Assembly (NCBI RefSeq): GCF_003151075.1
Contig: NZ_CP029482.1
Span: 6,076,001 to 6,140,000 of the forward strand
Origin: Pseudomonas sp. 31-12
GTDB lineage: Bacteria > Pseudomonadota > Gammaproteobacteria > Pseudomonadales > Pseudomonadaceae
DNA length: 64,000 nucleotides
Reading direction: 5' to 3'
This document shows positions 42,334 through 55,819 of this stretch, in pieces; positions within the stretch are counted from its first letter, which is position 1; each line of letters opens with the position of its first letter. Both the position numbers and the translations under genes were made by a program. Below the pieces are notes generated by a model. It worked only from the letters and a program-made list of their open reading frames with translations, was not told the origin of the DNA and did not search any database.

Positions 42334-42501
42334 GTGGGCGTCCATTAAGGGCTTTTTAAACGGCGCGTTTACTTCCAGAACGCTACGTTTTTTCTTGTTT
42401 AATTTGTTCCAAATACGTCTTACATCCGGTCGTAAATTTCCCTCGAAATTTGAACGGTTCGTTTATTCAAAGCCCGCCCCAGCGCCCGTAGACTCGTGTT
42501 T

Positions 42502-43248
42502 ATGAAAAAGAACACTAGCGGCCCACGGTTTAAAGCGCTCCTCGAAAAAGCGAAAATAACGACGACAGGATTTGCCGCTTTCTTCGATACGGAGCCGCAA
42601 AATATCCACAACTGGTACACCCGCGGTGTACCCGCCTACCGCATGGAAGAAGTCTCCAGACTACTCTCGGTAAACAGCGACTGGCTGAAAACCGGCGAGG
42701 GTTCCCAAGACTCCAAACACCTGCGCCTGCTCGACGAAGCCGGCAACACCTTCGACGCCCAGGCCATTCGCGGCATCTACACGGTGGTCGAACCCACCGA
42801 TGTCGAATTGCCCCTCTACAAGGAAATACCCATCGCCCCGGGCTCCTTCAACACTCACGTCGTCGAAGACCCCGGCCAATTCATCCGCCTGCCCAAAAGC
42901 CACCTCGACTCCCTGGAAATCAAATACACGGATGTCTTCTGCGTCCACATGAGCGGCAACGGCATGGGAGCACGGATCGAGGACGGCTCCACACTCGCCA
43001 TCGACCGCGGACTGACCAAGGTGATTGACGGGGAAATCTACGCCATCGAGCACGACGGCATGCTGCGCATCAAATACCTGCACCGGATGCCGGGCAATGC
43101 CCTGCGGTTGCGCAGCTACAACCAGGCCGAACACCCGGATGAGATCTTCAATGCCGAGCAGATTGATAAGCAGAACATCAGGGTGCTGGGGTGGGTGTTC
43201 TGGTGGTCGACGCTGAACAAACGGCGGCCGGCGGTGCCGTTTTTGTAA
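42502..43248 (+). CDS. S24/CI-like repressor lacking the catalytic serine
   Basis: A 248-residue phage-repressor-like protein. The N-terminal about 65 residues form a helix-turn-helix (FAAFFDTEPQNIHNWYTRGVPAYRMEEVSRLL). The C-terminal half is a LexA/CI S24 domain ending WVFWWSTLNKRRPAVPFL. The position of the self-cleavage Ser, usually GDSM or GNSM, reads GNGM (Gly154). The lysine of the dyad survives (Lys191 in LRIKYL). It is predicted to dimerise and bind DNA but not to self-cleave. The upstream region is AT-rich, unlike its neighbours. No other phage genes follow. Confidence 0.88.
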   Translation: MKKNTSGPRFKALLEKAKITTTGFAAFFDTEPQNIHNWYTRGVPAYRMEEVSRLLSVNSDWLKTGEGSQDSKHLRLLDEAGNTFDAQAIRGIYTVVEPTDVELPLYKEIPIAPGSFNTHVVEDPGQFIRLPKSHLDSLEIKYTDVFCVHMSGNGMGARIEDGSTLAIDRGLTKVIDGEIYAIEHDGMLRIKYLHRMPGNALRLRSYNQAEHPDEIFNAEQIDKQNIRVLGWVFWWSTLNKRRPAVPFL

Positions 43249-43600: not shown

Positions 43601-43811
43601 AATGCCTGTAAGAATCAGAATTGGGGCCCACATCGCATTAGTCAGCAGCCTGCCGACTAACTTTGCCTGCCTAGTTCAAGCAATTGTGCAACAGGTTGCT
43701 GCCCAATTAATAACCTCGCCCCTAATAAGCCTGTCTCGCTCAAATATCAGCAAAGACCGTCCAACAACCAGTACTCTCCGTCACCTCGACTCCCACCCTC
43801 TCTGGCCCTGC

Positions 43812-44216
43812 ATGAAGAACCTGATCGTCACCACAGCCCTGATTTTCTGCCTGACTGGATGTGTCGGCGTACTCGTAGCGGTGCCGGAAAAGACGACACT
43901 TAAAACCGACGCCTACCGGGATCTGACTTATCAATCCAGTACGCCGGTGATTACCAGTACGGTCAAATCCTCGCCAACCCGCGAGTGGTGCGGTATTACG
44001 CTGTGGGCTGTGATAATTCCGGTGCCATTGAAGCTGCCAGTTTGCGAGTCGTACTACGAACAATCCTTCGGCAACGATGTATTTGGAAATACCGTAGTGC
44101 TGCTGAATTCCGAGCAAAAGGTACCCGAACCCTTTTATACCTGCGGCCCATTCATGGTACTTGGGCCGATCAGTCATGGGTATGAAGGCAACGCTCTGTG
44201 CGGGACGTTTCCCTAA
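43812..44216 (+). CDS. Small lipoprotein of unknown function
   Basis: From the ATG at 43812 it has 134 residues: a signal peptide with lipobox CLTGC (MKNLIVTTALIFCLTGCVG), then a short domain with several Cys (WCGITLW, PVCESYY, YTCGPF, ALCGTF) that could form disulfides in the periplasm. I do not recognise a family. The frame is open 70 codons upstream, but the signal peptide marks the true start. It converges on the yfa cluster with a 2-base gap, and its role there is unknown. Confidence 0.75.
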   Translation: MKNLIVTTALIFCLTGCVGVLVAVPEKTTLKTDAYRDLTYQSSTPVITSTVKSSPTREWCGITLWAVIIPVPLKLPVCESYYEQSFGNDVFGNTVVLLNSEQKVPEPFYTCGPFMVLGPISHGYEGNALCGTFP

Positions 44217-44218
44217 GA

Positions 44219-45034
44219 TCAGGGATAACTAAACCCCTTAACCAACGTCAACTCTCCCACCGCCCGCATCGGCACCAGAAAAGTCTCCATCTTCTCGTTC
44301 GGCGTCCCTTCCTCCGTAATCACCGTCACCTGCGCCGTGGTCAGCGCCTGAACCGCCTCCTCCTGCCCTTCCTCATCACTCCGATACCCGCCCCCGAAGT
44401 AATTCACATAAACGAGGTATTGCCCCTTGATCGGCGCCGGCATGGCGAAGATTTCAGGGCCATACCCCGTCGTCACGTCAACATCCAGCGCCGCACCATT
44501 AGGCACAACCCGATCGCCATACCAGATGTGCGCACCATCGGGCGTGATGAGGTGCAGATCCAGATCCGTCCCATCGCTGTCCCACGCCAGCAGCACCCGC
44601 AACTTGGCCGGTGTGGCACCACCACTGGCATTGAGAAACTGCGTCCGATGCCGTTGCTGTCCATCGGGGCTGCGAACTTCAACGCTGTTGCTGCCATTGG
44701 GAAACGAGAACGGTCGATCAAAGCGTCCAGCCGGATCAATCTTCAGCGGCATGCTGACGCCGTTGATGATCAACCGTCCCGGTTCACCGGACTTGGGCGT
44801 GGCGTTGATCTGCCCGGTGATACGCGCCGTGTTGGCCTGACCCACCGGGGTGTTCACCGACGAAGCCGGGTAGTTGACGGTCTGACGAAAGCTTTCACCT
44901 TCACCTTCGGACGCGCCAGTGCGCCAACCACCAACAGGCGTATCAAGTTTCACGCCGCTATCAGCCGCAAAAACCGTCGGCAATACGCAAAAAGTACAAA
45001 GGAACAGGAAGACCTGTGGATAACGGAGTTTCAT
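44219..45034 (-). CDS. yfaP: YfaP family protein (DUF2135), downstream copy
   Basis: A 271-residue secreted protein. After a signal peptide (cleavage near TVFAADS) comes a conserved VGGWR motif, an Ig-like middle part (NGSNSVEVRSPDG) and the DUF2135 domain (LRVLLAWDSDGTDLDLHLITPDGAHIWYG, then PIKGQYLVYVNYFGG), which resembles bacterial beta-sandwich domains. It is the last gene of the yfa cluster, 3 bases after yfaQ. A clear paralogue lies at the other end of the cluster (53605-54396). Function unknown; periplasmic placement is inferred from the signal. Confidence 0.9.
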   Translation of the reverse strand: MKLRYPQVFLFLCTFCVLPTVFAADSGVKLDTPVGGWRTGASEGEGESFRQTVNYPASSVNTPVGQANTARITGQINATPKSGEPGRLIINGVSMPLKIDPAGRFDRPFSFPNGSNSVEVRSPDGQQRHRTQFLNASGGATPAKLRVLLAWDSDGTDLDLHLITPDGAHIWYGDRVVPNGAALDVDVTTGYGPEIFAMPAPIKGQYLVYVNYFGGGYRSDEEGQEEAVQALTTAQVTVITEEGTPNEKMETFLVPMRAVGELTLVKGFSYP

Positions 45035-45037
45035 GGC

Positions 45038-46657
45038 CTATTCCAGCAAGAGGTGGCGGGCGAGCCCTTCGATGTAGGTTTCATCCTGGCCGTTGGGATG
45101 TGCTTCGAAGGCCAGGTGCAGGTATTCGTGGGTCAGGTCGAGGCGGTCTTGCAGCGACAGCACGCCGCGCACGTAGATGCGCTGGCGTTCGCGGTCGACA
45201 TAGGGGCGGCCGAAGGCCAGGCGGCAGACGGCGAAGGTGCTGACGTCGTTGTAGCCGACTTCGCTTTCCAACCGCGGACGCCAGCCGCGGCGTTGCTTTT
45301 GCAGCCAGTCTTGCGCGGCGGGCAGTGCTTCGCAGGAGGCGACGGGGTTGTCCCAGCGGCTGAGGCTGGCGCGCGGGTAGGCGTGCAGCAGGATGGCGTC
45401 GTAGCGTTGGCCGGCGTTGGCTTGTTCGACGGCGTGCTGCCAGGACAGTTTGTCCGGGCCGGGTTGGTCGGAGTGATAGGTGACGGTGCTGCCGGCGAGG
45501 ACCAGGTCGCTGGTCCAGGCGGCGATGTGGCGTGATTCGGCGGTGGCCGGGCGTGGGGCGACGCGTTGGCGGCTGCTGCTGTCGTCGATGCTCAGGCAAT
45601 CGCCGTGGCGGGTGGCGTTTTGCAGCAGGTAGGTGCGGATGGCGACGGCCAGGGCTTTGGCGGCTTCAGCGGGTTCGGGTTTGGCTTCACGTTGCAGGAC
45701 ACGGGCGACGTACTCTTCACGGTCCAGCCGGGCGACGAGCTTGTCCTTCAACAGAAACAGTTCGCCATCGCTGTGGATATCGAGTTGATTGCCGTTGGCG
45801 AATTCGACGCGGTAATCGCCTTGCAAAGGCCCGGAAGCCACAACGTGATCCCCGGCCAGAACACGCCCGATCGGATAACGGGAAAACAGACCGACCTCGA
45901 CACATCGTCCTGCGTCCGCGGGCCAATCCACCGGCAACACCGAAGCCAACGCAGCCCCGTAATGACGAAGAACCATCTGACTGGTCCCGCGCCCACCCGC
46001 CCAGATCGGCGTGCCGTCCGTCATCCAACCGGCAAACCCGCCCTGACGCGACGATGGATCCTGATCGCCCAGCCAGCTCCAGGTTTTCACCCGCAGTCGA
46101 CCACCGAGTTCGCCAACGACGTTGCCGTCAGCCGCATTGAGCACCACATCGAGCAACACCCGCCGCGCCTGATCCTGAGTCGGCATCACGGCCAGCACCT
46201 TCAGCAATTCCGCCACCGACACGCGCGTAGAAGGCTGCAACGAAGGCAAGTCCAGCAACCATTCCGGAGCCTGCCGAGCCTGCCAATATTCCCGCCAGCC
46301 AGCATCAGAAATGCCCAATCGCGCCGGATCAAAGTACAAGCCGCACGATTTCACCAACGCCTGATCGCGCTCGATCTTGCCACCCGCCGTGCAGCAATAA
46401 ACTTCCTCTTTCGACTGCCCGCGACACTCATACGCCGGCTCACGGGCGCCGGTATCCACCAGCCAGCCGTACACAAACAATTTCCACAAACTGCCGAGCG
46501 GTGCCTGCACATCAGCAGGCAATGGCTCGCGGGAAATCACCTGAGTCCGGTTCAGCGAAATCAATTCACCCTTGAAGCCCAGTCGCAGCGGTTCGTCCTG
46601 CGCTGTCGCCAGCGCAGGAATCAAACACAGCAACCAAAAGACCAGCGCTCGGGTCAT
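45038..46657 (-). CDS. yfaQ: YfaQ family (DUF2300) multidomain envelope protein
   Basis: A 539-residue secreted protein (signal to about residue 20). Three parts can be read. Residues about 45-240 resemble a penicillin-binding transpeptidase with SxxK at Ser56-Lys59 (GSLWKLF), SCG in place of SxN at Ser104, and KTW in place of KTG at Lys191. Residues about 290-400 resemble SpoIID (LDREEYVARVLQREAKPE with Glu324, then AKALAVAIRTYLL). The C terminus has a zinc-peptidase HEYLH at 510-514 with Glu530. The family is named DUF2300; the domain reading is mine. It lies 1 base after yfaS. Confidence 0.85.
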   Translation of the reverse strand: MTRALVFWLLCLIPALATAQDEPLRLGFKGELISLNRTQVISREPLPADVQAPLGSLWKLFVYGWLVDTGAREPAYECRGQSKEEVYCCTAGGKIERDQALVKSCGLYFDPARLGISDAGWREYWQARQAPEWLLDLPSLQPSTRVSVAELLKVLAVMPTQDQARRVLLDVVLNAADGNVVGELGGRLRVKTWSWLGDQDPSSRQGGFAGWMTDGTPIWAGGRGTSQMVLRHYGAALASVLPVDWPADAGRCVEVGLFSRYPIGRVLAGDHVVASGPLQGDYRVEFANGNQLDIHSDGELFLLKDKLVARLDREEYVARVLQREAKPEPAEAAKALAVAIRTYLLQNATRHGDCLSIDDSSSRQRVAPRPATAESRHIAAWTSDLVLAGSTVTYHSDQPGPDKLSWQHAVEQANAGQRYDAILLHAYPRASLSRWDNPVASCEALPAAQDWLQKQRRGWRPRLESEVGYNDVSTFAVCRLAFGRPYVDRERQRIYVRGVLSLQDRLDLTHEYLHLAFEAHPNGQDETYIEGLARHLLLE

Positions 46658-46658
46658 G

Positions 46659-49600
46659 TCAGTTGACCGTGACCTGACCGAGAGCCGGTTTCTGTTCCTG
46701 GGCCTGATGTTGTGGCGCGTAGACCTGAGTGAAGCGCACCGGCGGCAGGTCGAACTGGCCTTTCTGCGAGAAGCGCACCAGATGACGCAGGCGCAGTTCG
46801 CCGCTCAAGGCATCGACCGGAATGGCATACGCCATCTGGCCCGGTTCGAAACGCGCTTTCTCCAGTGCAGTCGGTTCCGTGCCGGCCTTGCCCATGAGCT
46901 TGATGCCCCAAGTCGTGCGCTCGACATCGGCGCCCGGCGGCAGCGGCACTTCAATCATGCCGTAGCGCAACGGCTTGGCGGCTTTGCTGGTGATGATCAC
47001 TTCGTCCAGATACAGGCCGTCACTGGACAACGGTTTGTTGCCCACCGCTTCAAGCTTGAATTGGAACGCTTCGTCACCCGGCACCAATCGAGACAGGCGC
47101 CGGGTGATGGTCACCGCCATCGGCTCAACCGGCGGTTGTTTGGTCTGGAAGCTCAGCGCGGCGCGCAACGGACGTTCCTGCGTTCCGGTCAGCGACAACA
47201 CCGCCGGCACAGACGAAGCACCCTGCCATGTCCAATACATCTCACCGGTAGCACTGTGTTGTTTTTTCCAGCCTTCACCCGGAGCCAGTGCAATCGTCGG
47301 CGACGCTTGCTCGATGCTGCGCTGCAACCAGGTCAGCGCCAACGCGCGCTCCAGGGTTGATTGCTGTGGCAGCAACCGTTGCAACAACGCTTGCGCACGA
47401 GCCTGATCGAAGGTTTGCAGCGACAGGTTCAAGGCTTCGGCAAAGGGCTGAGAACTGACCGCCAGACGTTGCTGTGCATCCGGCAGCTGACGATTGAATG
47501 CGTCGGGCAAAGCCACCTTCGACTGACGCGCCAGCGATGCCGTCAGCGCACGAGCAGCCGCCAGACCCAATGCGGAATCCGGATCGCTCATGACAAGGCT
47601 GTCCCCGCCATCCTCCATCAGGTTCGCCGCATTGCCCTCGCCTGCGTTGGCCAAGTCATCCATCAAACCGCTGAGCAACGTATTGACCGGCAATTGCATC
47701 TGCTTGGCGAACGACAGAATCAGCGCCCGCTGCAACAACGGCGTGTTTTTCGCCTGCTTCGAATACACCTCCAGCACTCGCTGCCAATGCTCCGGCGGCA
47801 GGCTCAGTTCCAGCGCTTTGCTGGCGTGCCAGTCGGCGTAATAGGCGTAGGCAGTGAGGAACGCATCCGGCTCACCGTCCATGCCCCACCAGGTGAAGCT
47901 CGCGGAAGGCCCGGCCATTTGCACCAGGCGCAGGCGGCTGTTCTGCATGATCAGGCGCAAGCGATCGCGGATCTGCGGGTTCGACGACAAGGTCGGATAC
48001 GCAATGCTCAACGGCAGCAAACGGCTAGCCGTTTGTTCGACGCCGCCGTACGGATAGCTCAGCAAATCATCGAGCGCCGAGCGGAACAGCGCTTGCGGAC
48101 TGTCATCCAGACGCAGGCGAATATCCGTCGCGTCCGCCGGCAGCGTCAGCGGCGTGTCACCGCTGGCCACGTCCAGGCTCTGGCTTTGCGTCACCTGCCA
48201 ACCTTCGCCGGTCGCAGTCAGGCGCACGGCCAGGGCATCGGCGGTTTTACCGTCCTGCACCAGTTCGGCGGCCCACTCGCCGGAGGCCAGCGCGAACGCC
48301 GGCAGCGCGATGTAGTTGATGCCGTTGTTGAGCGTTACCGGCACGCGCTGCTCGGTGCCGCCGTAATGGATGACCAGTTCAGCCTTGACCGATTTTTCGG
48401 CCTGGCTGAAAGCGAACACACCGAGATCCGGTTTGTCGCCATTGCGGAACTTGGTCGGGCCGCTCCACTTCAGGTACAGCGGTTTCTCCGAGCGCACGAA
48501 TTGCTTCTTCTGCCCGACCTGACCGTCATCGGCGATGGCCCGCGCAGTGATGCGCCAGCGGGTCAGCGAGTCCGGCATTTTGAAGGTGAAGCGGATTTTG
48601 CCGTTGGCGTCGGTGATCAACTCAGGTTCCCACGCGGCGGTGTCGACGTCTTCGCGACGCGGCCGCTCCAGCACTTTCACGCCGCGCTCGCTGCGGTTGG
48701 CTTTGCCCGGTGCCCCGGGGCTGCCCGGCAGCGCAACGTCGTAGCTGATAAACGACAGACTGGCGCTGGTACGCACGTTGTTGCGGCGCGGGTGGTAGAA
48801 GAACTGGTCGATGGTCGGCGCGACTTCCGGTTGCAACGCGTAGACCATTTCATCGACCACGCTGACGGTCAGGTGCGCCGGAATCGGCTTGCCGGCGAAC
48901 TGGGTAGTCAGGTCGACCGACACGGTATCGCCCGGCTGGTACGACTCTTTATCGGTGGCAATGGCGACGTCGATTTGCGGCGCGATCACCTTGATGCCGG
49001 CGTTCTGGAAGCTGTACTGACCGCCCTTGGTGTACAGCACCGAGAACGTCAGGTTCGGCGCGAAATTGTCCTTCACCGGAATGCGCGCGCGGTATTGGGT
49101 GTCGCTGAGTTTTTCCATCTTCAGCCAGTCGCCGCCCTTGGACAACAGCGCGGTGGACTCGACCTTGTCGCGTTCCAGCGACAGCAAGGCATCGCTCACT
49201 GGCTCAGGGAAAGTGATCAGCGCCAAGGCTTCATCGCCCGCCTTGTACTCGGGTTTGTCGAGAACGATTTCCACGGTGCCGGGCACCGCTTTCACGCCAT
49301 CGCCCGTGACCGAATGGCCAGTGGCGCCGACGACTCGACCATGGCCATCTTTCAACGTCAGGTTGTAGGTGCCCGGACGGTCGAAGGCCAACGTGAAGCC
49401 TTTGTCGGTTGCGGCGAGTTTGCCATCACCGATGCTCTGATCTTCCAGACGCACCCAGCTGTAGCTGCCCGGCGTGACCGCTTTGCTTTCCTCGCTGCCA
49501 CCTTCATTGGCGTAGCTGAACGCAACTTTGTCGCCTACTGCGCTGAACCGCTGCGGGGCGCTCAAGCGGAAACTGGCGGCACCACGGTCGATGAGGATTT

Positions 49601-51224
49601 CCTTGGTGGTCTTGACCCGATACGCCGCGCCATCGCTGGCAAACACGGTGAGCATGTAGCGGCTCGGTTTCTCGGCGGCCGGCAGGTCGAGGGTCGCGCT
49701 GCCCTTCGAATCCGTGGTCAGTTCGGTGCTGGTCAGTTCCACCGGGAATTGCCCGAGGTATTGCAGCTCGTTGTCGACCATCGACAATTGCTGGGCGCGC
49801 AGGCTCAGGCTCAATTTGGCGTTCGCCACCGGCTTGCCGTCCGGGTACAGCAGCACGAGGCTGCCCTTGACCGGTTCGCCGGTGCGGTAATCCTGCTTGG
49901 CCAGGTTCAGCGAGATTTCGAAGTGCGGCTTGATGTATTCGGCGACGCGAAATGCGCTGCTGTAAGCCTGATCCTTGTAGCTGAAACGCAGTTCATAACC
50001 ACCCGCCACCGCGTTATCCGGTAGCTGGAAGCGGCCCTGGGTGCCGGACTTGGAATCGAGTTTCAGCGAGAGCGATTGCAGCGCCGTGCCAGTAGCATCG
50101 AGCACGGTGACGTTGACGTCGGCAGCGGTCGGCTGCACCGAGTCCCGGGCATTCTTGAACTCGCGGCCGACGATTTTCAGCGACACCCAATCCCCCGGCC
50201 GATACAGCGGCCGATCGGTGAAGGCATAGAGTTTGGTGTCGTAGATTTCGCTGTCGTAATAGAAGTTCTCGGAGACGAATACACCGCCCTCCTCGTCCTC
50301 GCCGATCACGAACGAACGCTCCGGGCTGACGTGTTTGAGGCGTAGCAAACCATCGGTATCGGTGGCGCCGCTGCTCATCACGCCCAAGCCATCGGTCCAC
50401 AGCACATTCACTTTTGGTACCGAACTGCCTTCGTGTTTGCGCGCGGCCCAGACCAGCAATTCATCACCGGCAATCTTGCTCACGGCGACGGTGTTGGAGA
50501 CAAAGACCATGGTGGTCGCGCGGTACTTGCCGATCAGCGCTTCCACCAGGTACAAACCCGGTTTCAGGTTGCCCAGCGGAATGTAAACGTTGCCCGGTGC
50601 GACGCTGACGAACTCACTGGAAGAACCGGCCAGATTCACACCGGTAGGCGGCTGGATCGGCTTGGCTTGCCACAGCGGATAACGGAACTGACTGACCACC
50701 GGCAAACCCGGGATCAATGCGAATTGCGGCTGTGCGTCGTAAGGCGTTGGCGCGGCAATCGCGCTGCCCATCTTCAGTTCCGGCACTTCCTCGGTGACTT
50801 GTTTACGGGACTCGTAGGAAAACGCCCGCTGCATCACGCGACGGGATTTGCGATACCAGTTGTCCCACAGGTACGCGAGGGTGTTCGACAGCCCTTCGCC
50901 CTTGAACTGGCCGTCACTGACCACGCGGTGCAGGTTCTTCTGGCGCTTGAGGAAATCCAGCGGTTTGTCGATGCGATACACGCGGATGTCGGCGCCGCCG
51001 TAAGGCTCCATGCGGAACCGGCGATAGTCGCGGCCCGGCGCTTCGAGGCGCACCATCGCCTGTTCGTCGCTGGCGAAACTGCTGTCCGCCAGCAGGAAAA
51101 AGCTTTCACCGGCCACCGGCGTGTAGCCGCTCGGCTCGACGGAGTCTTCAGCGTTGACTGCTGAAAACGGCAACACCAGGAGCAACAGCAAAGGCAGAAA
51201 ACGCAACATGCGGGCACCGATCAT
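46659..51224 (-). CDS. yfaS: Alpha-2-macroglobulin family protein YfaS, thioester-less
   Basis: A 1521-residue periplasmic alpha-2-macroglobulin-like protein. From the ATG at 51224, overlapping the yfaT stop as ATGA, there is a signal peptide without a lipobox ([17 protein letters not shown]). MG beta-domains ([16 protein letters not shown] repeats) follow, then the family hallmark [17 protein letters not shown] and the thioester-domain toroid. The thioester motif CxEQ reads GVEQ (Gly1061) in [12 protein letters not shown], so no covalent trap can form. The frame is open 134 codons upstream through yfaT and is not coding there. Bacterial members bind proteases in the envelope. Confidence 0.92.
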
Positions 51225-51871
51225 TGGGAGAGGAAGTTCAGTCGATAGACGCCGATGAAGTTGGGGTTGGCTGCGTCGGGTATCCATCGGGTGTCCTTCC
51301 ATGTCATGAGTTGCTGCAGGCTCGCGGAACGCATGCCGTTGTCTGTGGGGGTGGTGGTGCCGGTGTGATAAGCGATGTAGCGGCCCATCCAGATCATCAG
51401 GTGCTGGTCGTCGCCCTGATCGAAAAACATCAGGTCGCCAGGCCGGGCCTGCGATACGTCGCGGCCCACCAGATGACTGTTGAACTGGATCAGTTTGATT
51501 GCGTTGACGTACGGCCCGACCTTGCCGCCGCCCTGCTGCCACTGCTGGGCGAGGCCGCGTTGGGCTTCGCTCAGTGGCAGCTCTGGCGGCAGGTAACGGT
51601 TGGACAGGCCATTGCTGCGCAGCCATTTATCGTCGTGGACTTTCAGCGCTTCGTTGGCGGCGAAACGCACCAGACCCGCACAGTCCTGCTGATACCAGCG
51701 CGGACTCGGGCCTTGGGTCAGTTGTTCCTGGGCGATGCGCACGAACCAGGCGCGGAACACCTGGGATTGCTGCGGATCCAGCGCTGCCGCTTCTGTGGCA
51801 AATGCGCGACTGCCCAGCAACATCGCCAGCAGGCCGAGGCCTCGGATGAGTGCGGTCACAGGGCTTTCCAT
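51221..51871 (-). CDS. yfaT: YfaT family (DUF1175) NlpC/P60-like protein
   Basis: A 216-residue secreted protein (signal cleaved near AFATEA). It has the pattern of NlpC/P60 cysteine hydrolases: Cys64 in [17 protein letters not shown], then [22 protein letters not shown] with His157 and YIAYHTG with His169. The family is labelled DUF1175 with no known function; cleavage of wall peptides is inferred from the pattern. The ATG at 51871 overlaps the yfaA end by 16 bases, and its stop overlaps the yfaS start. Confidence 0.87.
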
Positions 51872-53568
51872 TCCAGCGGCAGCCACTGCCAATGGCCGTC
51901 AGGCTCACTGCCTTCAGGCAAGGTCAGGGCGTATTTTCCGTAACCGCCGAGCTTGCGCAGTTTCGGGATCAGGTAGGTTTGCGCGGCGTTGTAGAACACC
52001 GGTTCCATGTCCTGCGGCAGGCTGTCGAGGGTTTCCTGTTGCATCAGTTGCGCCATGGCATCCGGGCCGAAGTAGACCGGCATCAGCAGGTCTTTCGGCA
52101 CCACGTCGGCCATCGGCGGGAAGCGTTTGTCGAGGGTGCCGAGTGCCTTGTCCACGAGCTTGTCGTCGAGGGAGAACAGCAACGTCGAACCGTGACGCGT
52201 CAGGCTGACCTTCATGAACGCCTTGCCGGTGATCGCATCCGGGGTCTCGGCATCCTTGGCTTTATAAGGACCGAAGTTGGAGCTGACCTGGCGCTGCCAT
52301 TGATGGCTTTGGCCTTCCTGCTTCTCGACCACCGGGAACGCGTGTTCTTCAACGTTGCCTTCGTAGGCGCCGACCATCGAGCCGAACAGAGTGCCCAGGT
52401 CGCCGTCGAGTTTGGCGCTGTCATCATCGTTCAGGCTGGCCACCAGCAACGGCGTGTACAGCCGCGAATCGGCGTACCAGCAGAGTCCGGCCGCACCGGC
52501 CATGTGTTCGGTCAGGGACTGGGCCACGGTTTCGTCGGCGCCCAGTTTCACTAGCAGCGGTTTCTGTTGTTCGGCGGCGAGCGGCAAGGCCACGCAAGCA
52601 CTGGCGCCCATCGGCATGGCTTGCCAGATCGGTTTGAAATCGAAGTCCGGCTGGTTGTCCAGTTCGTCCATGGCGAGGAAGCTGTGCCAGCCCTTGTCGT
52701 CCATGTCGAAGCGCAGGCCGGCGAAGTTCGGGATGAAACGCTGGTAACCCATGGCCAGAACGCTGGCGTTGACCGACAAGCGTTGTTTCACTTCAGGCGT
52801 GCGCGGTGGCAGGCCGAAGGCTTCGGGGAACAGTTTCTGACCGCCGAGCAGTGCTTCCAGCGCTTGGGTCGACACCATGCCGCGCTCGTCAGTCGGGCCG
52901 TGGCCGGTGTCATACAGCTTCGAAGGGTTGGACAGCACCACCAACTTGTCGCCATAGGAGACGAACACCAACGCTTTGCTGTTGTTATAGGTCAGTTGAT
53001 ACAGCGGCACCGCATCGCCGGCGACCTTGATTTCACCGAGCTGGGTCAGCTGCGTATCATCCAGTGCCACTTTGGCCAGCGGCTCCAGCACCTTGGCCAG
53101 ACCACCGCGATCCATCACCAACAAAAAGTCTTTCAGACGACCATCCGCCCCGCGCCACAACGCCACATCCGCCGGCTGATCGAAGAGTTGCTCGATCAGG
53201 CTGTCCTGCAATTTCAGGTCATGCTCGTAAATGATCCGCCGCAGGCTGCCAATCAAGCCGAGGCGATCGGCATGCGCTTCGTAATAGAAGACGAAATCTT
53301 CGGTCAGGGTTTCCTTGAGGAACGGCACGGCCAGCAAGTCCTTGGGCAACTGGCTCAAGGAGTGGGTTTCGAGCAGGCCGTCCGGGCGGCTCATGCCCAG
53401 TTTGTCACTGGCCAACTCTGCCGGTGGCGCCTTGGGTTTGTGCATGAACCAGCCCAGTCCGGCCGCGACGCCGGCCACCAGGCACAGTCCGATCAGCACG
53501 GCTGGCCAGCGCCGGGAAGGTTTGGCGGCCGGTGCGTCAGCGGCAGGAGTCACAGTGTTATCACTCAT
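51856..53568 (-). CDS. yfaA: YfaA family (DUF2138) membrane-anchored protein
   Basis: A 570-residue protein with a short cytosolic, Ala/Pro-rich N terminus, one membrane span ([21 protein letters not shown], about residues 24-44) and a large periplasmic domain assigned to DUF2138 by its place in the yfa order. No catalytic motif is evident. The one-span, long-periplasmic layout would tether the cluster's products to the inner membrane; that is inference. It is followed by yfaT with a 16-base overlap. Confidence 0.85.
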
Positions 53569-53604
53569 TTCACAAAGCCCAATTCATCCGTGGAGGCGGG
53601 ATGC

Positions 53605-54396
53605 TTAATAGTTGAAAGTCTTGACCAGCAGCAGGTCACCGATGGCCCGCAGGGGCACGATGAAGGTCTCGCGTTTTTCGTCGACGGTGTTTTCGTTGAG
53701 CACCAGGTTGATCTGCGAAGTGATCACCTCGTTCTGGTTGCTGGTCTCATCGAAGTTATAGCCGCCGCTGCCGAAGTTGCCCCAATAGTTCACGTAAACC
53801 AGATAGGTGCCATGCATCGGTGCGGTCATGGTGAACATTTCCGGGCCAGGGCCATCGACACCGTCCGGGTCCAGGCCGCCGCCGTTGCTCATCGCCGGGC
53901 GAGCCCAGAACGCATGCTGGCCGTCGGGGGTCACGATGTGCAGATCGAGTTCGGCTTTCGGATCGTCCCATCCCAGCACCACGCGAATCCACGCCGGGGT
54001 GCGCAGGTTGTTCGCTTCATAAAATTGAACGCGCTTGAGGGATTTGCCTTCGACACTGCGCACTTCGACGCTGTTGGAGCCGGCACCGAACGCATACGGC
54101 CGGGCGAAACGCCCTTGGTCGTCGGTGTACAGATTCAGGGGATTGCCGTTGACCGCCAGCGTGTGCGGCCCGCGTTGCGTGCCGATGGCCTTGAGCTGGC
54201 CCTGGATCATCGTGCGATTACGCTGCACGCCCCGGTCGATGGGCGGCGTGGGATAGGCGACTTGAGGGTATTCGCTGCGATCGAGCAGGCCGTTGTAGCG
54301 CCAGCCGCCGACCGGTTCCGACAGCTCAGCCGTCGACTCGGCCCAGGCAGCGGTCGCGCAGACCCACCCCATCAGCACTAGAAGAAATGAACGCAT
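53605..54396 (-). CDS. YfaP-like protein (DUF2135), upstream copy
   Basis: A 263-residue secreted paralogue of the downstream yfaP. It has a signal peptide (cleavage near AAWAEST), PVGGWRYNG, GSNSVEVRSVEG, then DUF2135 with LGWDDPKAELDLHIVTPDGQHAFWA and HGTYLVYVNYWGNFGSGGYNFDE. The ATG at 54396 was chosen because AGGAGG lies 6 bases upstream. It is the first gene of the six-gene cluster, 36 bases before yfaA. The 277 bases to the Fic gene hold its promoter. Confidence 0.88.
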   Translation of the reverse strand: MRSFLLVLMGWVCATAAWAESTAELSEPVGGWRYNGLLDRSEYPQVAYPTPPIDRGVQRNRTMIQGQLKAIGTQRGPHTLAVNGNPLNLYTDDQGRFARPYAFGAGSNSVEVRSVEGKSLKRVQFYEANNLRTPAWIRVVLGWDDPKAELDLHIVTPDGQHAFWARPAMSNGGGLDPDGVDGPGPEMFTMTAPMHGTYLVYVNYWGNFGSGGYNFDETSNQNEVITSQINLVLNENTVDEKRETFIVPLRAIGDLLLVKTFNY

Positions 54397-54586
54397 GTGA
54401 CGCCTCCTGCCATGCATAACGAAACCTTGCACCCGATCCTCGGCGCGTTACAGATCCAAAAACTGCGTTTCGTCAGAAAGACCCGTGACTATTGGGTCGT
54501 AGAAGGCGCGAAGGTTAGCCATTTGGCGGTTTTTTAACAATCGGATACATCTATATTTGCGGTAGGAATCACGGTGATTTTTGGAC

Positions 54587-54617
54587 GTGAGCCGAATAAA
54601 GAGGTTATTCGGCTCAC
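54587..54617. promoter_or_regulatory. Perfect palindrome 1 before the Fic gene
   Basis: GTGAGCCGAATAA and its exact complement TTATTCGGCTCAC face each other across 5 bases. The core GAGCCGAAT is shared with the next palindrome. An operator or RNA stem is likely. Confidence 0.75.
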
Positions 54618-54619
54618 GA

Positions 54620-54652
54620 AATGAGCCGAATACGACTATCATTCGGCTCATT
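54620..54652. promoter_or_regulatory. Perfect palindrome 2 before the Fic gene
   Basis: AATGAGCCGAAT and ATTCGGCTCATT are exact complements across 9 bases. The centre lies 34 bases from that of palindrome 1 and about 38 bases before the Fic ATG. Together they give four GAGCCGAAT half-sites. Confidence 0.75.
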
Positions 54653-54673
54653 GACCTTGGAGCACCTGAATTC

Positions 54674-55819
54674 ATGGCACCTCACTGGATCTGGCAACAG
54701 CCCGAATGGCCGAATTTCAACTGGCAAGCCGAGCGCCTGACACCGCTGCTGCGTGAGTGCGTGCAGGCGCAAGGCCGGTTGATGGGCATGGCCAGTTCCG
54801 TGGGTGGCTCGCTAAGTGCGCAGAGCGAACTGGATGCGTTGTTGCAAAACATCGTGACGTCTTCCGCTATCGAAGGTGAACAGCTCAATGTTGGCTCGGT
54901 CCGCTCTTCGCTGGCGCGGCGCCTGGGTCTGGAACAGGTCGATGGCGATCACGTCAGTCAGCGCAGCGAAGGTCTGGCGGAGTTGATGCTCGATGCCACC
55001 CAGCACTTTGCGAAACCGCTGACGCTGGAGCGATTGCTGGAATGGCATGAGTGGCTGTTTCCGGATCAGGACACTGACCTTGCTGCTCGAGCGATGCATG
55101 TCGGCGCGTTACGCGGCGATGAGCCGATGCAGGTAGTTTCAGGCCGGCTCGACAGACCGACCATTCACTTTGAAGCGCCTCCCCGTCGTGGCCTTGAGCA
55201 ACAACTCGATACGTTCCTTGCCTGGTTTGAAGCCAGCCGAAGTCAGGAAGGGCTCGATCCATTGCTGCGGGCCGGCATCGTGCACTTCTGGTTCGTCACC
55301 TTGCACCCCTTCGACGATGGCAATGGCCGCCTGACACGCACCCTCACCGATCTGGCGCTGGCTCAGGGCGAGGCACAGGCCATCCGTTTCTATGCGATGT
55401 CAGCGAGCATTCTTGAGGATCGCGCTGGCTATTATCGGGCGCTGGAAGCCAGCCAGAAGGCGACGACGGATATTACTGATTGGTTGGAATGGTTTCTGAA
55501 AACCTTGCTGCGCAGCTTGCATCAGGCCATGGCGCGGATCGAATCGGTGCTGGGCAAGGCGCGTTTCTGGCAGACGCATCGGCAGTCCCCCTTAACGGCG
55601 GAACAGACCAAAGTGCTGAATCGCCTGCTTGATGGCGGGGAGCGCGGTTTCGAGCATGGCATCAGTGCGGCGCAGTATCAGGCAGTGGCGAAAGTATCCA
55701 AAGCTACTGCCACTCGTCATCTGAGCGAACTGTTGGAGAAAGGCTACCTGAAGCGTCTACCAGGCGGCGGGCGCAATACTCGCTACCAGATCAGCTACCC
55801 CGATGCCTCCACCGATTAA
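54674..55819 (+). CDS. Fic family protein with N-terminal inhibitory motif and C-terminal winged helix
   Basis: From the ATG at 54674 it has 381 residues. The N-terminal DUF4172-type region begins PHWIWQQPEWPNFNWQ. The inhibitory (S/T)xxxE(G/N) motif is SSAIEG (Ser63-Gly68), as in class II Fic proteins. The full Fic motif HPFDDGNGRLTR (211-222) predicts adenylyl transfer from ATP to a target hydroxyl. The C-terminal about 80 residues look like a winged-helix DNA-binding domain (AVAKVSKATATRHLSELLEKGYLKR). Two tandem palindromes lie just upstream, suggesting autoregulation. The target is unknown. Confidence 0.92.
   Translation: MAPHWIWQQPEWPNFNWQAERLTPLLRECVQAQGRLMGMASSVGGSLSAQSELDALLQNIVTSSAIEGEQLNVGSVRSSLARRLGLEQVDGDHVSQRSEGLAELMLDATQHFAKPLTLERLLEWHEWLFPDQDTDLAARAMHVGALRGDEPMQVVSGRLDRPTIHFEAPPRRGLEQQLDTFLAWFEASRSQEGLDPLLRAGIVHFWFVTLHPFDDGNGRLTRTLTDLALAQGEAQAIRFYAMSASILEDRAGYYRALEASQKATTDITDWLEWFLKTLLRSLHQAMARIESVLGKARFWQTHRQSPLTAEQTKVLNRLLDGGERGFEHGISAAQYQAVAKVSKATATRHLSELLEKGYLKRLPGGGRNTRYQISYPDASTD

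Follow-up and report, generated by a model that had tools for sequence, protein, structure and literature searches.

The 64,000-nucleotide stretch of the Pseudomonas sp. 31-12 genome analyzed here (contig NZ_CP029482.1, positions 6,076,001 to 6,140,000; hereafter the window) carries six adjacent genes on its minus strand (44219-54396), all assigned to families by Pfam matches, and it is nearly certain that this cluster is the ortholog of the magABCDEF operon of Pseudomonas aeruginosa (PA4492-PA4487). The two agree in the six genes, their families and order, and in an alpha-2-macroglobulin, MagD, that lacks a thioester site. As an ortholog of a known operon, the window cluster is unremarkable; nothing was found that sets the window copy apart. 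The gain from the analysis lies in a more precise reading of MagE that can be put to the test, and in a broader picture of the mag variants. The conserved core of MagE is a predicted zinc-peptidase domain of 115-130 residues that has a natural peptidase-only version, which opens the mechanism to a one-residue experiment. The features of MagE in the window are as follows.

45038..46657, minus strand: magE, three-domain protein, DUF2300 plus SpoIID (Pfam and AlphaFold2 model)
45929..46600, minus strand: MagE residues 20-243, class D beta-lactamase/BlaR1-sensor/penicillin-binding protein (PBP)-like fold (fold search of the model)
46481-46492, minus strand: MagE SxxK codons
45566..45742, minus strand: MagE SpoIID-like domain, residues 306-364 (Pfam stretch), including Glu324 (PF08486, 31.9 bits, cut-off 23)
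45041..45385, minus strand: MagE HExxH zinc-peptidase-like domain, residues 425-539 (alignment and model)
45116-45130, minus strand: MagE HExxH codons
45080-45082, minus strand: MagE Glu526 codon
45068-45070, minus strand: MagE Glu530 codon

The AlphaFold2 model of MagE has a mean predicted local distance difference test (pLDDT) score of 90.2. The hits of the fold search with the full model were all taken up by residues 20-243. The HExxH domain (pLDDT 89.3) has gluzincin-type (zincin) peptidases as structural neighbors. A sequence search of the PDB returned no solved relative of MagE (best E value 0.86). All 30 divergent long MagE proteins in the alignment share the SxxK motif, Glu324 of the SpoIID domain, and HExxH together with Glu526 and Glu530. 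The two glutamates are candidate downstream zinc ligands of HExxH. Glu324, which we take to be the equivalent of SpoIID Glu88, is a catalytic-type residue, and the domain is predicted to be lytic-transglycosylase-like. In the first domain, the third PBP motif, K[T/S]G, is replaced by K[T/S]W in all 30 proteins and by KTF in G743 (genomes are cited by our G numbers). The initial annotation had read PBP-like, SpoIID-like and zinc-peptidase parts in this protein. All three hold as resemblances, the PBP-like part for its beta-lactamase/PBP fold and SxxK motif but not for the third motif.

Pfam matches DUF2300 twice in MagE. An internal duplication was considered as the origin of this tandem and was rejected (hhalign probability 0.3% between the two regions, with shallow alignments). 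Because their profiles have no detectable mutual similarity, we treat the two matched regions as different domains, and "tandem DUF2300" is probably the wrong label for them.

In BlaR1 and MecR1, a class D beta-lactamase-like sensor and a gluzincin-type HExxH peptidase are combined in one protein, a pairing that MagE resembles by its fold matches. BlaR1 and MecR1 are integral membrane proteins whose peptidase domain faces the cytosol. MagE, in contrast, is secreted, has its sensor-like domain first and SpoIID in between, and lacks K[T/S]G in that domain. The model contains a single N-terminal signal-peptide-like helix, unlike a BlaR1-type integral membrane protein. The parts are thus alike, and membership in the BlaR1/MecR1 family is not implied.

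A peptidase-only form of MagE, which the initial annotation had missed, occurs in other mag operons. In seven genomes (G068, G469, G470, G587, G580, G538, and G519), the interval between magD and magF holds a short secreted MagE that consists of the HExxH domain alone. These flanked cases are the firm ones, with magD partial in G470; G528 and G554 each have a short MagE close to the end of a contig. When proteins of 0.55-1.75 times the query length were searched, 41 short MagE proteins of 107-170 residues were found, one of them named Candidatus Competibacteraceae, a set that may include pieces of longer proteins located on short contigs. HExxH, Glu526, and Glu530 are invariant in 102 of 102 aligned MagE proteins (81 long, 21 short) and in 42 of 42 short ones with the query included, and inspection by eye found them in nine further MagE proteins. 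Because these residues are invariant in all the long and short forms compared, the HExxH domain is the part of MagE that is never lost; the beta-lactamase-like and SpoIID domains are found only in some lineages. On a 15-row MagD tree, one change divides short from long MagE, on a branch with 100/100 support. This comparison with distant relatives suggests a small zinc peptidase as the essence of MagE.

The same set of operons bears on the definition of MagD, for which two features of the window are needed.

46659..51224, minus strand: magD, alpha-2-macroglobulin with MG2, bait-region, A2M, and bMG10 domains (Pfam; start re-read as 51224, the mechanically called open reading frame opening at 51626)
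48033..48044, minus strand: MagD thioester site, GVEQ in place of CxEQ (sequence reading)

The A2M, A2M_BRD, and MG2 domains of the window MagD score above the Pfam cut-off and the thioester site reads GVEQ, which fits the Type II description (bait region, no CxEQ). GVEQ was also found in 75 of 80 Pseudomonas loci, as read from open reading frames matched by the G068 MagD, the remaining five having no readable motif; these loci are the 80 listed of 257 confirmed relatives, all of them Pseudomonas. Among 15 operon MagD proteins, however, CxEQ is kept in ten (G068, G469, G743, G768, G796, G580, G538, G519, G831, and G229) and absent from five (the window, G347, G294, G587, and E. coli, where the site reads GVIN). 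The absence of CxEQ therefore fails as a family rule for mag-type MagD. Because most of the compared operon proteins carry CxEQ, the statement that Type II lacks the thioester fits P. aeruginosa and E. coli but not the mag system as a whole. The CxEQ count and the MagD tree are new. The 15-row tree requires at least three changes of thioester state, which could also be a single gain plus two losses. Shuffling of the labels showed no significant clustering of thioester loss on this tree (52 of 500 shuffles were as low with one label and 42 of 500 with the other). We considered whether thioester loss goes together with short MagE and rejected the idea, since both thioester states are found with both MagE forms. 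Relatives that carry the thioester offer a way to find out what the complex captures. The Type I bacterial alpha-2-macroglobulin next to pbpC (E. coli YfhM) resembles mag in pairing a macroglobulin gene with a wall-enzyme gene, and CxEQ is common to it and ten of the 15 mag-type MagD proteins. The mag operon differs from it in its other partners, and the window MagD lacks the Cys.

The remaining genes of the cluster have the following features.

53605..54396, minus strand: magA, secreted DUF2135 protein, magF paralog (PF09906, 50.5 bits)
51856..53568, minus strand: magB, membrane-anchored DUF2138 protein (PF09909, 722.8 bits)
51221..51871 (ATG start) or to 51892 (TTG start), minus strand: magC, secreted DUF1175 protein, NlpC/P60-like (PF06672, 201 bits)
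51680..51682, minus strand: MagC Cys71 codon, predicted nucleophile, in TTG-start numbering (alignment of 15 MagC)
51401-51403, minus strand: MagC His164 codon
51365-51367, minus strand: MagC His176 codon
44219..45034, minus strand: magF, secreted DUF2135 protein (PF09906, 62.1 bits)

The genes are closely packed: magA and magB are separated by 36 nt, magB and magC overlap, magC and magD overlap by 4 nt, and gaps of 1 nt and 3 nt separate magD from magE and magE from magF. As read by eye, MagA, MagC, MagD, MagE, and MagF have N-terminal signal-peptide-like starts and MagB has one transmembrane segment. The initial annotation, which described six adjacent genes of these families with gaps of at most 36 nt and secreted or membrane-anchored products, is borne out in these respects. 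Its comparison with E. coli yfaA-yfaT-yfaS-yfaQ-yfaP also holds. The five yfa genes are orthologous, in this order, to magB-C-D-E-F, with 53% identity between the MagE proteins, and E. coli YfaQ keeps the SxxK, SpoIID, and HExxH stretches of the window MagE. E. coli differs in having no magA, which had been overlooked. The full gene order also occurs in G294, which belongs to the same family and whose MagE is 64% identical to that of the window. The closest MagE in the database (97% identity) is from Pseudomonas sp., and the named neighbors are P. fluorescens/mandelii-type species.

A sample of the class comprising 203 genomes has DUF1175 and DUF2138 in the same two genomes; DUF2300 occurs in three, once below the cut-off, and DUF2135 in three. 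In each of the two genomes that have all four families, the families sit in one cluster. Because they co-occur, clustered, in the same two of 203 genomes, the clustering is not due to chance. Beyond this sample, the order B-C-D-E-F was found in 13 of 19 further loci; four are cut by contig ends, and two, which came from sub-cut-off matches containing stops, have no operon. The order A-B-C-D-E-F was found in 74 of the 80 Pseudomonas loci, the other six being incomplete. The open reading frame bounds of locus L119 are mechanical and overlap. Neither scattered genes nor missing PBP, SpoIID, or NlpC/P60 folds, either of which would have spoken against the cluster as first described, were found. 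The operon is patchy, with DUF2300 in 16 of 398 genomes of the phylum and in seven of 244 genomes of the order. Isolated matches outside the operon pattern were seen for DUF2300 in G064 (below the cut-off) and for DUF2135 in G091 (just above it). Among ten flanking open reading frames from five distant loci, six have a Pfam family, none of which is wall-related and none common to the loci.

MagC has an NlpC/P60-type Cys-His-His site, as predicted from alignment: all 15 MagC proteins compared carry Cys71, His164, and His176. The NLPC_P60 Pfam score (20.9 bits) is under the cut-off of 23, and the best PDB sequence match of the MagC profile is 7bk8, "MagC" (E value 1.6e-112), so that the NlpC/P60 resemblance first noted stands. 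A review that cites a 2021 FEBS Letters paper on MagC describes the family (DUF1175) as inactive but peptidoglycan-binding (PMC10318531). The conservation of the Cys-His-His residues contrasts with this reported inactivity.

For MagA and MagF, and likewise for MagB, a PDB sequence search found no solved relatives. A magA-type gene is present in three other Pseudomonadaceae genomes (G294, G831, and G347). In G796, a magA-like gene lies between magE and magF, beside magF at the 3′ end (locus L121, 6944-8534), and the 5′ position of magA in Pseudomonas against this 3′ position suggests duplication and relocation. Several MagF proteins of the short-MagE clade are fused to an N-terminal LprI domain (PF07007), a domain named after a mycobacterial lysozyme inhibitor. 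A scan of seven MagF proteins of this clade, which did not include the short ones of G469 and G470, gave scores above the cut-off of 22 in G538 (30.8), G580 (24.7), and G519 (22.3), a score just below it in G554 (21.8), a weak match in G587 (14.9), and none in G528 and G068. This puts LprI-fused MagF in four of the nine short-MagE genomes. Of 48 genomes of their order, six have a full MagF, four of which align over the LprI part. No LprI domain was found in the window MagF by the Pfam scan. The Salmonella LprI protein ScwA sets wall-hydrolase levels and is reported to have no role in lysozyme resistance (PMC7933661), and the LprI-MagF fusions tie the mag operon to wall-hydrolase control.

Because the cluster is the published mag operon, the initial view that it was known by order but not by role is out of date; complex assembly, protease trapping, and protection against some peptidoglycan-targeting type VI effectors have been reported (PMC5764988, PMC12663445). 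In P. aeruginosa, MagD traps protease without a thioester, and with an engineered site it traps tobacco etch virus (TEV) protease; MagA, MagB, and MagF bind MagD, which is anchored at the inner membrane and stabilized by MagB; and loss of magE leads to less MagD and to larger MagD forms, read as unprocessed signal peptide (PMC5764988). In a 2025 CRISPR interference screen, MagD was reported to be protective against two type VI effectors that cut the wall, VgrG3 and, to a limited degree, Tae1. The same paper describes no protection against TseH and a MagD that is dispensable against B. thailandensis, places the operon in the GacA regulon alongside type VI secretion genes, reports better growth of a magD mutant in chlorhexidine, and states the mechanism of resistance to wall-cutting toxins as open (PMC12663445). 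In E. coli, deletion of yfaQ gives wider cells in several media and resembles wall mutants, and YfaQ has been reported to have its own signal-peptide-like start.

The best overall explanation, which we hold with middling confidence, is a macroglobulin complex tethered to the membrane, in which MagC and MagE are the partners that face the wall. As in P. aeruginosa, and by assumption here, MagB would hold MagD at the inner membrane and MagA and MagF would attach to MagD. Peptidoglycan would be faced by MagC, through its NlpC/P60-like binding domain, and by MagE, through its penicillin-fold and SpoIID domains. On the published MagD data, this complex probably protects the periplasm from injected toxins that cut the wall and from proteases. 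A further step is tentative: the HExxH peptidase of MagE may be switched by wall fragments or damage sensed by the first two domains and may then process MagD. Such processing could be activation, turnover, or release, with parts paired as in BlaR1 within one secreted protein. The peptidase-only clade would need another source of wall recognition, such as the LprI domain that some of its members carry on MagF. Three observations weigh against a MagE that couples wall reading to the processing of MagD: a stable MagE-MagD complex was not found in vitro in the published work, MagE was once assigned to the cytoplasm, and short MagE proteins have no wall-reading domains.

A bolder extension, which we think unlikely, would make MagE a soluble periplasmic counterpart of BlaR1, in which the penicillin-fold and SpoIID domains read the state of the wall and license a mini-gluzincin that arms or recycles the macroglobulin trap. 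The mag system would then be complement-like and triggered by wall injury. Its ancestral trap would have been covalent (CxEQ), with MagE perhaps a peptidase alone; wall sensing would have come later in the Pseudomonas/E. coli lineage, and a sister lineage would have fused LprI to MagF.

The published model holds that MagD is solely a trap for periplasmic proteases, that the other five proteins are assembly or stability factors, and that MagE is a chaperone or an aid to signal-peptide processing. It draws on the capture of TEV protease by engineered MagD, the stabilization by MagB, and the larger MagD forms without magE (PMC5764988). MagE has, however, its own signal-peptide-like start, peptidoglycan-type domains, and invariant active-site-type residues, which is more than a chaperone needs, and the protection data of 2025 concern wall-cutting effectors rather than proteases (PMC12663445). 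We judge this model improbable as the full account. A wall repair set, nearest to the repair or defense machine first proposed for the cluster, is about equally improbable. MagE and MagC would act on peptidoglycan at sites of damage and MagD would serve as recruiter or shield, in line with the invariant Glu324, the Cys-His-His residues of all 15 MagC proteins, and the wall-mutant appearance of the yfaQ deletion. The repair part of that proposal is countered by the replaced third PBP motif in 30 of 30 MagE proteins, by the review that calls DUF1175 inactive and peptidoglycan-binding (PMC10318531), and by a clade that keeps the operon with a MagE devoid of the PBP-like and SpoIID domains. In a third alternative, which we think very unlikely, the operon would have a housekeeping role in setting wall-hydrolase levels or cell width and would confer toxin resistance only incidentally, by making the envelope sturdier. 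This would suit the wider yfaQ cells, the chlorhexidine growth of the magD mutant (PMC12663445), and the role of ScwA (PMC7933661). The patchy distribution and the GacA control shared with type VI secretion genes (PMC12663445) fit defense better.

Several observations concern the surroundings of the operon. At its 3′ end, an open reading frame (43602-44216) that matches no Pfam family and contains an internal lipoprotein-like start stops 3 nt short of the end of magF on the other strand, and a gene for an S24-peptidase-type repressor lies nearby (42496-43248). A gene for a Fic/DUF4172 protein (54581-55819) is divergent from magA. The magA leader (54397-54536) has AGGA between CC and GG, approximately 43 nt upstream, and the GCAGGAGGCG Shine-Dalgarno sequence, both conserved across at least 90% of 69 aligned, closely related Pseudomonas leaders; this could fit the Gac/Rsm control reported for P. 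aeruginosa. Genome G000 has one TssC/VipB match (C1:69568-70467), and a type VI secretion system is therefore likely to be present in it.

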